A stretch of DNA of 64,000 bases from assembly GCF_035918235.1 (NCBI RefSeq), contig NZ_CP109485.1:4340001-4404000 (forward strand). Direction: 5' to 3'. The notes beneath the pieces are model-generated. The model searched no databases. It was not told the DNA's origin and was given only the letters and a program-made list of their open reading frames with translations. The DNA is from Streptomyces sp. NBC_01445 (GTDB taxonomy: Bacteria; Actinomycetota; Actinomycetes; Streptomycetales; Streptomycetaceae). The position numbers and the translations under genes are program-made. The stretch's first letter is position 1. Every line of letters begins with the position of its first letter. This document shows, one piece after another, positions 56,358 through 60,336 of this stretch.

Positions 56358-57485
56358 TCAGGCGTCGACGAGTTCCCTCGAACCCAGCTTCTCTCGTGAC
56401 GATTCGAGGTTGCGGGTCACCCGGTCGAGGTGATCGGCGGGCACCTTGCCACTCTCTAGGAGGCGTTGGCTGCATTTCGCCGACTCCTCGTATTCCCCGA
56501 TCCAGTAGGAGGCTACGGCGAGTTCGTCGAGTGAGTGCCACTCGTACCACTCGAACTCGACGAACAAAGTGTCTTTCGGGTACGGAATCTGCGCTGCTTG
56601 CCGGGCGAACATGTACGCAAGTGGCCAGCGCTCGCCGTTCATGCGGCAATAGCGTGCGAGTCCACCGAGGGCTTCGGCGCCGCGCGAGGGACGGCTCTCG
56701 TACGCGCGGAGGTAGCGGTCGATCACCTCAGCCGGCGGCCGGCCGATCTCTGCCGCGAGCCGTGCGGCGTAGAGGTGAGCACAGAAGACTTCCTCGGCGT
56801 AGCCGCCCATGCGTGCCCGGCGGTCGTAGGCGGCGAGTGACTTCTTCGGCTCTCCGGCATCGCGCCAGCTCTGGGCGAGGTAGAAGACGTAGCGGGAGTT
56901 GTCGGGTTCCTTGATCAGGCCTTTCTGAAGGATCTTGGCGTCCCGCAGGTACTTCTTCCGCTGGCCCTCCTCCTTCAGGCGTGCGCCGCCCCCCACCGAG
57001 AGGATGTTGGCGCCCTTGAACGTCCCGAGGCTGTACGACGTTCCGCACTCGATGTACTCGTGCAGGACGCCGACATAGCGCCAGGGCAGCCGAGTCGAGA
57101 CCAGAGCCTGGCGCCAGTGGATGAGTGTCCCGCTGTGCAGTGCGACATGGTAGGCGTCATGAGTCAGCTCCGGCATGCGAAAGCCGGGCTCCACCTCCAT
57201 CAGGTCGTCGGCGTCGATGAACAGCAGATAGTCGGCTTCGGAGCGTGCCAGGTCGATCGCCTCGCTGCGGCTCCCGTCGTATCCCTTCCAGGGACTCTCG
57301 TGCAGGGTGCCGGGCAGATCGCTGAAGACGTCACGGATGACGTCCTGGGTGCCGTCGGTCGAGCCCGTGTCCAGGATGACCCAGGTGTCGATCAAAGGGC
57401 GCACGGATTCGAGGCAGCGGCGGATGACATGGGCCTCGTTCTTGACGATCATGTTCAAGCAGATCGTTGATTTCACAGGCTTCAT
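56358..57485 (-). CDS. GT2-family glycosyltransferase with TPR-like C-terminus
   Basis: The protein has 375 residues. The N-terminal GT2 domain has ICLNMIVKNEAHVIRRCLESV, WVILDTGSTDGTQDVI and FIDADDLMEV (the DxD nucleotide-sugar site). From about residue 185 the protein is helical with TPR-like repeats (YVFYLAQSWRDAGEPKKSLAAYDRRA). This architecture occurs in glycosyltransferases acting on proteins or lipids in Gram-positives. It lies beside a second glycosyltransferase and, farther on, a divergent collagen-like protein. No hydrophobic domain is present. Confidence 0.85.
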   Translation of the reverse strand: MKPVKSTICLNMIVKNEAHVIRRCLESVRPLIDTWVILDTGSTDGTQDVIRDVFSDLPGTLHESPWKGYDGSRSEAIDLARSEADYLLFIDADDLMEVEPGFRMPELTHDAYHVALHSGTLIHWRQALVSTRLPWRYVGVLHEYIECGTSYSLGTFKGANILSVGGGARLKEEGQRKKYLRDAKILQKGLIKEPDNSRYVFYLAQSWRDAGEPKKSLAAYDRRARMGGYAEEVFCAHLYAARLAAEIGRPPAEVIDRYLRAYESRPSRGAEALGGLARYCRMNGERWPLAYMFARQAAQIPYPKDTLFVEFEWYEWHSLDELAVASYWIGEYEESAKCSQRLLESGKVPADHLDRVTRNLESSREKLGSRELVDA

Positions 57486-57617
57486 CCTGCTCTTTGAGGT
57501 AAATCACCAAAACGGATATGCATCTGACTGCACAACACTGGCCAGGCAGGCGCGCCGAGTTGACGCAGGGAGGGCGCGCGAAACTTTTCCCGCGGCGGCA
57601 CAGCGCGGGGTCGGGCT

Positions 57618-59114
57618 CTATCGCTTACGCTCCAGCAGTGCGACGGTCAGACCACTGAGGGGGACCGTCCCGGAGGTGGTGTACTGCGCACGCAGCGCCC
57701 TGGCCTGATCCGCGGGGACCGCATTCAAGGGATCCGGATCATTTCCCGGTACCACCACCCAGATTCGACGCTCGCCGCTCAAGCACGCGACCGGCGCCGG
57801 ACAATAAACCGGAAACAGTTCATTGTTCTCGGCCGCCGGTTTGGCGACGAACACTTCCCGCGGCTTCAGGCCGGGTCGAAGATAGTAACGAACTCCCTGG
57901 TCGAGCATCCACGGAGCTCCCTTGACATAGACCGCCGCATCCCCGGAGCGGTAATACTTTTCGATGGTCCGCGCGGCTGCCTTATAGTCCGCATTGTGCG
58001 GGACATCGTGTTCGAATTCCCCTCTCATCCTGCGCTGGTCGGGCAGCACGAGCAGACCGACCGCGGTCAGAACCACGGCAACCGTCAGCCAGGACCGCGC
58101 CACCCGGGCAAGGCCGGCCCCCGCCAGCACCGTCCAGGCCGGCACCGTGAACAGGGCGTACTGAAAACGGAAGTAGGAGACATCCCCGTGGGACGCCGCC
58201 CACAACACGAAAGGAGGCAGCAGGGCCACGGTGAAGCACAGCAGAAGGGCATCGCGGCGCTCATTACGTGCCATGGCCGCCAGCGTCATCACCACTCCGG
58301 CACACAGGCCGGAGGCGAACACCTGGGGCCAGATATCGGCCAGGCCCCACAGGTCCGGCTCAGGAACCCAGAAGAGCTGGCGGGACGCCTGCGACGTGCC
58401 CAGCACGACCACCGGGATCACACCGGCCACACCGGCCAGAGCCGCGAGGCAGAAGCGCCACAGGACGCCACCCTCCTGCCGGGATCGGTGGACGACCGCG
58501 GCGAAGTGCCCCGCCAGAACGGTCAGCGCGATCAGGTGCAGCAGTCCGACGACCGCCACACACAGGGCGTACCCCGCCCAACGCCACCAGCGCCTGGGCG
58601 CATCGAGGGCACGGAGCAGCAGGAACGTCGCCAAGGTCGCGGCCAGGACCACCAGGGCGTAACTGCGAGCCTCCTGACCGAACCGGCTCACGACGGGAAT
58701 CAGGGCGAAGAGCAACCCGCCGCACATCCCGGCACGCGGGTCGAAGAGCCTGCGCCCGATCAATGCCACCAGAGCCGCTGTTCCGCTCATGGCCAGCGCC
58801 GAGGGCATGCGCATGGCTGTCTCCGAGTAGCCGAAGACGGCCATCCACCCGTGCATCAGAACGTAGTACGTGGCATGCACCGCGTCGACGTTCTGCAGCA
58901 TCGCCAGAGTCTGGCCCATGCTGCGACGGCCCACATCCGAGGTGACGAGCTCATCGGTGCCCAGCTGAGGGCCGTCGATCCGGAGGAACGCGATCGCCAG
59001 CGTGGTCAGCGCCGGCCACATCCATAGACCGACAGATGCCCCAAGGGGTCTTTTCCGCCTCGTGGTCTCCGGCTGAGTCTCTGCGTTCTGAACAGGGCTG
59101 GTAAGGGTTGTCAC
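57618..59114 (-). CDS. Membrane glycosyltransferase (GT39/GT-C like)
   Basis: The protein has 498 residues and about 11 membrane helices. Early on, RIDGPQLGTDELVTSD supplies the acidic pair expected after the first helix in GT-C enzymes (D-E), and a large outside C-terminal domain begins near residue 400 (DYKAAARTIEKYY). GT-C proteins use polyprenyl-phosphate sugars outside the membrane. Given the neighbouring collagen-like protein, O-glycosylation of its Thr residues is plausible but unproven. The GTG at 59114 has a weak ribosome site; the ATG at 59177 is an alternative. Confidence 0.82.
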   Translation of the reverse strand: MTTLTSPVQNAETQPETTRRKRPLGASVGLWMWPALTTLAIAFLRIDGPQLGTDELVTSDVGRRSMGQTLAMLQNVDAVHATYYVLMHGWMAVFGYSETAMRMPSALAMSGTAALVALIGRRLFDPRAGMCGGLLFALIPVVSRFGQEARSYALVVLAATLATFLLLRALDAPRRWWRWAGYALCVAVVGLLHLIALTVLAGHFAAVVHRSRQEGGVLWRFCLAALAGVAGVIPVVVLGTSQASRQLFWVPEPDLWGLADIWPQVFASGLCAGVVMTLAAMARNERRDALLLCFTVALLPPFVLWAASHGDVSYFRFQYALFTVPAWTVLAGAGLARVARSWLTVAVVLTAVGLLVLPDQRRMRGEFEHDVPHNADYKAAARTIEKYYRSGDAAVYVKGAPWMLDQGVRYYLRPGLKPREVFVAKPAAENNELFPVYCPAPVACLSGERRIWVVVPGNDPDPLNAVPADQARALRAQYTTSGTVPLSGLTVALLERKR

Positions 59115-59409
59115 GGAAACAGTTTTAAAGCCGCCGCATGGCCGCACGGCACAGCCACGGACAAAGAAACCCGTCATTCGCCTGATCGGCCCTCAGGCAC
59201 GGCGTCGGCCCAAACCGATAATCCAAGTCTTTCACCGACCGGCGTAGGCACTGCACACCAATGGATCTCTTACGGGTTACTCATGCTGAGCCATTGTATT
59301 GATCGCTTTGCGTACCGCTTAACCGCATTGCGCTCACTGTCGAAGATCCCGACGGGGCTCAAAAGAGCTTCCGGAAAAAAACACACAGGTTCCCCAAGGA
59401 GTAAAACAG

Positions 59410-60336
59410 ATGAGTCCTGAAAACGGGACCCAATCCAAGCTGGGCCCGCTTCCCCGGCGCGGCAGGTGGATCGCCGGCGGTGCGGTGGCATCGCTGGCCG
59501 TCGTGGTGCTCGGCTTCACCAGCCCGGCGCTCGCCGCGACGTCGCAGAAGGCCGGAGTGGCCCAGGCAGGAGCGCAGGGCGGCGACAAGTGTAAGGACAA
59601 GAAGGATCGCTACGGCGCTCCCGGTGTTCTTGGCTACGGCGACAAGGACAAGGACAAGTGCAAGGGCCCCAAGGGAGACACCGGTAACACAGGGAACACA
59701 GGGAACACGGGCAACACCGGAGACACCGGCAACACCGGCAACACCGGCAACACCGGCGACACGGGTAACACCGGGAACACCGGCGACACCGGGAACACAG
59801 GGAACACCGGGAACACGGGCAACACGGGGAACACCGGGAACACCGGGAACACCGGGAACACCGGCAACACCGGCAACACCGGCAACACCGGCAACACCGG
59901 CAACACCGGCAACACCGGGAACACGGGCAACACCGGCGACACCGGGCCGTGCACCGACATCGACTCCTACGCCCCCTCGAACACCGAGGGCTTCTCCGCC
60001 GTCCTTCTCCCCAACGGCAATGCTTACGCCTTGAAGCAGGACCCGCGGGGTGCCACGGAGGACGACACCGACGACGAGGTCAACTGGGAGCTCATCTCCG
60101 ACAACGCCGACTACCCCGACGGTGCCTGCGCCATCGCCATTGAGGATCAAGGCAACGACGCCTACATCAAGGTCGTCACCCAGAGCGGCGAGGTGTGGCA
60201 GACCCACGGGGACACCAACGGTCAGAACTGGATCTGGAACGAAGGCTGGGTCCAGATCGAGCCGCCGGCGGCGACACTAGCGACCCGAGCCTCCAAGTTC
60301 ATGCGCCCACTGCCCGAGGGCACCCCGCTGAACTGA
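59410..60336 (+). CDS. Secreted collagen-like triple-helix protein
   Basis: The protein has 308 residues. A signal peptide ([24 protein letters not shown]) precedes a short Lys/Asp-rich segment with two Cys. Next come GPKGDT and thirty Gly-X-Thr triplets, X being Asn in most and Asp in some (residues 89-178). The C-terminal domain of about 130 residues has Cys at PCTD and ACAIAIE and is rich in Trp, Asp and Asn. Collagen helices normally need Pro; here none is present in the triplet part, so stability would need Thr glycosylation or another feature. AAGGAG precedes the ATG. A strong terminator follows. Confidence 0.92.
59674..59943 (+). repeat. Thirty 9-bp tandem repeats encoding Gly-Asn/Asp-Thr
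   Basis: The units are GGxAACACx or GGCGACACC; the copies in the middle are nearly identical, e.g. GGCAACACC six times in a row. The array is in frame, so slippage changes length by whole triplets. Confidence 0.92.

Follow-up and report, generated by a model that had tools for sequence, protein, structure and literature searches.

The DNA analysed here, a stretch of 64,000 nucleotides from Streptomyces sp. NBC_01445 (contig NZ_CP109485.1, positions 4,340,001 to 4,404,000; referred to below as the window), contains a gene for a collagen-like protein next to genes for two glycosyltransferases, a GT2 enzyme with a tetratricopeptide repeat (TPR) part and a membrane enzyme of the GT-C kind. We found that GT2 genes of this type and genes for collagens having Thr at the Y position of their Gly-X-Y (GXY) triplets are linked in other Streptomyces far above background, and that this pairing is not specifically actinobacterial. 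By analogy with the enzyme SgtA of C. difficile, the GT2 enzyme probably O-glycosylates the Y-position Thr residues before export of the protein, with the GT-C enzyme acting outside.

A search of 150 Streptomyces genomes with the GT2 sequence (E≤1e-30) yielded 42 places in 34 genomes, corresponding to 40 genes after the pieces of two broken ones had been joined. Collagen runs were scored as Thr-type when they had at least six GXY triplets and Thr at half or more of the Y positions, and as linked when they lay within 4 kb of the GT2 gene. Linked Thr-type runs were present for 26 of the 40 GT2 genes (three of the 26 adjoin one another in locus L061 and share one collagen gene), and 400 kb of arbitrarily chosen Streptomyces DNA (20 stretches of 20 kb) contained no Thr-type run. 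In the 20-kb Streptomyces loci, 31 of which were picked for their collagen, Thr-type GXY sequence makes up 6.7% of the bases within 1 kb of GT2 and 0 of 206,836 bases at a distance of 6-9.5 kb. On these linkage counts we rejected the idea that the glycosyltransferases are envelope-polysaccharide enzymes placed near the collagen genes by chance. A six-frame genome query with the Pfam Collagen model was unusable for counting, since 143 of the 150 genomes match it and some stretches do so on both strands. The initial annotation had raised co-occurrence of all three genes in other Streptomyces; this held for the GT2 and Thr-Y collagen genes and failed for the GT-C gene, homologues of which accompany only five of the 40 GT2 genes.

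The same GT2 sequence was used to scan GTDB genomes. The best 79 loci comprised 35 from Streptomyces (several shared with the 150-genome set) and 44 from other organisms, and a Thr-type run was present within 4 kb of GT2 at 19 and 26 of them, respectively. At the 44 non-Streptomyces loci the Thr-type GXY share of bases was 6.4% within 1 kb and 0.06% at 4-6 kb. Among the matches listed, the 26 linked loci belong to Pseudomonadota, Myxococcota, Verrucomicrobiota, Acidobacteriota and Actinomycetota, so that the description of the system as actinobacterial has to be given up. An annotated glycosyltransferase also adjoins Thr-Y collagen genes on plasmids of Bacillota (Priestia, Peribacillus and Bacillus velezensis); these enzymes are 28-33% identical to the GT2 of the window over 57-82% of the query. 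The BclA-type exosporium collagens of Bacillus and Priestia thus resemble the protein of the window in having Thr-Y repeats and a neighbouring glycosyltransferase, theirs on plasmids, and differ from it in their head domains. The domains flanking the repeat differ among loci and, by eye, seem unrelated, and all four kinds of relative orientation of the collagen and GT2 genes were found. Because flanking domains, orientations and genomic settings vary, it is the Thr-Y repeat, and not a given head or chromosomal site, that recurs beside GT2. In a quick, long-branched tree of 87 GT2 rows, the 60 linked ones are scattered over deep branches (19 changes, versus 23 in shuffles).

Within the triplets, Thr is specific to the Y position. 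In linked runs, which were pre-selected for a Y=Thr fraction of at least 0.3 so that the contrast is partly built in, Thr occupies 72% of the Y and 3.6% of the X positions at 25 Streptomyces loci (948 triplets), and 57.5% and 7.1%, respectively, at 30 other loci (1,533 triplets); the low Thr content of X is not built in. Thr is the most frequent Y residue of Gram-positive collagens according to the part of a review used here (PMC8968730), and its tie to a neighbouring GT2 is what the present work adds to that frequency.

A converse comparison starts from the C-terminal domain (the tail) of the collagen-like protein. A genome search with this domain gave 34 places in 25 of the 150 Streptomyces genomes, its own included. 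The 20 tail-sharing genes with GT2 within 4 kb have a mean Y=Thr fraction of 0.75 (range 0.24-1.0), versus 0.12 for the eight genes with at least six triplets among the 14 that have no GT2 within that distance; the remaining six unlinked genes comprise five that lack a GXY run and one with four triplets. One unlinked gene, at L028, is Thr-rich (0.59), and its genome carries a GT2 elsewhere (L051). In the longest run of each gene, the charged fraction of X plus Y is 0.08 for GT2-linked and 0.34 for unlinked genes, and the Pro fraction 0.19 versus 0.29. A homologue search with the tail alone (53 candidates) returned none at E≤0.001, despite the relatives in 25 of the 150 genomes.

The GT2 enzyme passes the Pfam model PF00535 (49.4 bits, cut-off 23.3) and has a conserved DxD motif. 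In its predicted structure (pLDDT, the predictor's confidence score, 94.3) the C-terminal half is helical, and TPR structures align with residues ~140-375. Its nearest solved relatives, both by sequence and by fold, are SunS and ThuS, which act on Cys of small peptides, and GmaR, which acts on flagellin; it falls below the cut-off of the SunS family model TIGR04195 (43.6 bits, cut-off 350). These matches assign it to the peptide/protein-glycosyltransferase kind, in line with the earlier proposal of a glycosyltransferase as the candidate Thr-modifying enzyme.

SgtA of C. difficile is a glycosyltransferase with TPRs of 358 residues, whose gene lies immediately upstream of bclA3 and which in vitro adds beta-O-linked N-acetylglucosamine (GlcNAc) to Thr of collagen-repeat peptides (PMC7157674, in the part used here, as for all statements on this pair). 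Similarly, the GT2 of the window consists of a GT-A domain followed by TPRs, has a similar length (375 residues), and is encoded next to a collagen-like gene with a Thr-rich repeat. The likeness is one of architecture and gene neighbourhood. SgtA-BclA3 belongs to the spore exosporium of a member of the Bacillota, and that part of the paper describes no GT-C; the fibre protein of the window differs from BclA3 in its signal peptide, in its tail and in its repeat, which is (GNT)n without Pro. Judged by this analogy, the Streptomyces pair most likely works as SgtA-BclA3 does. The system had been put forward as undescribed; its principle was already known from the glycosylation of BclA3 repeat Thr by SgtA, the only bacterial collagen glycosyltransferase that we recognised in the open-licence literature searched, and no description of the Streptomyces system was found in that literature.

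In the mechanism that we propose, GT2 would move a sugar, perhaps GlcNAc as with SgtA, from a nucleotide donor to the Y-position Thr residues in the cytosol, while its TPR part would hold the repetitive collagen chain. The glycosylated chain would then be exported by means of its signal peptide; cytosolic glycosylation followed by export has precedents among adhesins. Outside, the chains would trimerise into a Thr-glycosylated triple helix whose glycans would replace the stabilisation supplied elsewhere by imino acids, the two-blade C-terminal domains of three chains would probably pack into one head, and the membrane GT-C, if present, would add or extend sugars. Glycosylated Y-Thr has been proposed to stand in for hydroxyproline in the cuticle collagen of the vent worm Riftia, an animal protein whose enzymes are unrelated to those of the window. 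A paper on collagen glycosylation that was searched for threonine and for Riftia (PMC11012932) mentions neither.

Several observations weigh against a GT2 dedicated to Y-position Thr. No Thr-type run lies within 4 kb of GT2 at 14 of the 40 Streptomyces loci and 18 of the 44 others, although several of the 18 are short contigs and at four of them (L111, L123, L137 and L145) Thr takes 33-44% of the Y positions of a collagen. Five of the 14 carry a collagen with less Thr (L029, L057, L058, L064 and L072), at L057 and L058 one with Gln at Y; also among the 14 are L067, where the neighbour is a (GGTPT)n protein, and L063, where a broken GT2 adjoins a repeat-less relative of the collagen-like protein. 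Gln-Y collagens (GAQ, GPQ, GNQ) lie near GT2 relatives at L056, L057, L058, L088, L091 and L099, and Gln is no O-glycan acceptor; at L056-L058, genes that by eye resemble those for dTDP-rhamnose synthesis are also nearby. GT2 enzymes without a Thr-Y neighbour have either other acceptors or substrates encoded elsewhere. Moreover, as SunS and ThuS modify Cys, the fold leaves Thr as acceptor unfixed. Finally, the tail tree has five GT2-label changes and only two to three phylogenetically independent pairs, for which reason the rank test on the converse comparison (p=5e-5) overstates the evidence.

These points bear on other explanations. GT2 might have as its main target another residue or protein rather than the repeat, for instance Ser or Thr in the flanking domains, Cys in the manner of SunS, or further secreted proteins rich in Thr. 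Its top fold matches are indeed S-glycosyltransferases, a second GT2 in the same genome adjoins a (GGTPT)n protein and no GXY collagen, relatives on plasmids have an autotransporter or a YadA-like protein as neighbour, and some relatives have Gln-Y collagens nearby. We nevertheless consider this explanation rather unlikely, since across phyla the Thr-Y repeat recurs beside the enzyme though the heads vary, and since tail relatives without GT2 are poor in Y-Thr. The latter genes also bear on the idea that there is no glycosylation at all, Y-Thr steadying a bare helix through hydration or hydrogen bonds and the glycosyltransferases being nearby envelope-polysaccharide enzymes. The general rank of Thr as top Y residue of Gram-positive collagens (PMC8968730, same part) and the rhamnose-like genes near some GT2 relatives fit this idea, but collagens with the same tail and no GT2 mostly have other Y residues, L028 being the exception, and the linkage repeats in several phyla and in every orientation, which makes it quite improbable.

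The GT-C enzyme passes the PMT_2 model PF13231 (49.8 bits, cut-off 26.1) and weakly matches the mycobacterial mannosyltransferase model NF052499 (MT1671; 126 bits, below the cut-off of 900). Both matches would suit a scheme in which a PMT-like GT-C O-mannosylates Thr after export and GT2 has a different role. We regard this scheme as highly improbable in view of the distribution of the gene: it is scarce at the 40 Streptomyces GT2 genes, and a tblastn search (E≤1e-8) of the 44 loci from other organisms, of which 26 carry a Thr-Y collagen, found no GT-C homologue. GT-C is an accessory at a minority of loci, where it probably adds or extends sugars outside the membrane. Its five top matches in the 150 genomes (51-100% identity, that of the window included) are all at GT2-collagen loci, and the next-best one (46%, L075) has no GT2 nearby; among the best 79 GTDB loci, GT-C homologues are present at 11 of the 35 from Streptomyces, ten of which also have Thr-Y collagen.

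Going beyond glycosylation by the GT2 of the window, a wider proposal is conceivable, to which we lean somewhat less than to its opposite: a multi-phylum GT2-TPR family would be dedicated to collagen Y-Thr, glycosyl-Thr would replace Pro and hydroxyproline and so allow a Pro-free (GNT)30 repeat, and the Streptomyces protein would bear a three-unit head, possibly a lectin. If true, one known enzyme-collagen pair would stand for a general way in which bacteria glycosylate collagen, glycosylated bacterial collagens would be predictable from sequence (Y-Thr plus a GT2 neighbour), and a Pro-free triple helix held by glycosyl-threonine would become directly testable. Matched enzyme-substrate pairs could also serve to produce glycosylated recombinant collagen.

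Features of the three-gene region are listed in Table 1. The open reading frame of the collagen-like protein is preceded by AAGGAG just 5′ of its ATG, and the protein passes the Pfam model Collagen PF01391 (51.5 bits, cut-off 27.2). Its repeat consists of 25 GNT and five GDT triplets, and in the run of 32 triplets that includes the framing GPK and GPC, Pro occurs only in these two. The initial annotation had thus correctly described a Pro-free repeat of 30 triplets followed by a Cys-bearing tail (Cys181 and Cys240; the other Cys residues are at 61 and 84), as well as the two divergent upstream glycosyltransferase genes; the signal peptide that it named is recognised by eye. When the 30 nine-base units of the repeat are compared with the majority base at each position, 23 differences are at third codon positions (15 in Gly and eight in Thr codons) and the other five are Asn/Asp swaps. 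That Gly and Thr are never altered argues for selection on both; the repeat is coding and constrained. To judge from its N-terminus the protein is apparently secreted. Twin-arginine (Tat) export, considered because of an RR pair near the start, was rejected: the place of the pair shifts in L061 and the pair is missing in L063, which tentatively favours the Sec route.

Table 1. Coordinates of the collagen-like gene, its parts and the neighbouring glycosyltransferase genes in the window
Feature	Position	Strand	Basis or remark
GT2-TPR glycosyltransferase (375 aa), probably O-glycosylating Thr of the repeat	56358..57485	-	PF00535
GT-C membrane glycosyltransferase, PMT_2-like, 519 aa	57618..59177	-	PF13231
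Divergent intergenic region, GT-C start to collagen start, 232 bp	59178..59409	.	
Collagen-like protein, apparently secreted, 308 aa	59410..60336	+	Open reading frame (stop inside coordinates) and Pfam match
Signal-peptide-like N-terminus, ~aa 1-43	59410..59538	+	Boundary by eye; similar starts in L061 and L063
Linker rich in Lys/Asp, with Cys61 and Cys84	59539..59664	+	Sequence
Uninterrupted repeat of 30 Gly-(Asn/Asp)-Thr triplets (aa 89-178), preceded by GPK and followed by GPC	59674..59943	+	
C-terminal domain, 128 aa from Cys181	59950..60333	+	Modelled: two beta-propeller blades

In its structural model the C-terminal domain has two beta-propeller blades; if the stalk is a trimer, its three tails could combine into a single head of six blades. 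A profile of the tail had no match among PDB sequences at E≤10, and its model none in Foldseek at E≤0.001. RSL, a trimeric fucose lectin of the AAL family, has no sequence match to the tail, and other propellers score equal or higher. The nearest relative (L076:2964-3830, compared with 59410-60336 of the window), in which the (GNT)n run is longer, has a GT2 and a GT-C that are 98% and 91% identical to those of the window, and a collagen tail that is only 32% identical, which points to much faster change in the head than in the enzymes.

Some further loci are worth recording. A broken GT2 lies beside a relative of the collagen-like protein without GXY repeat, as if both had decayed jointly (L063:9458-11496). 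The second GT2 in the genome of the window, 42% identical to the first, is located outside the window (L067:9404-11700; C1 about 5071100-5073400), and the neighbouring Thr-rich, non-collagen protein with its long (GGTPT)n repeat bears a signal peptide. GT2 relatives are encoded directly 3′ of an autotransporter gene on a Citrobacter plasmid (L163) and of a YadA-domain gene on an Acinetobacter plasmid (L164), and these neighbours suggest that GT2 relatives may glycosylate other surface fibres. Another relative, 40% identical, is encoded by the jumbo phage Tunturiibacter phage Tunturi_5 (L155, record 31110-44120); a tail-fibre gene containing runs of GXY triplets with Thr at Y lies five genes away.
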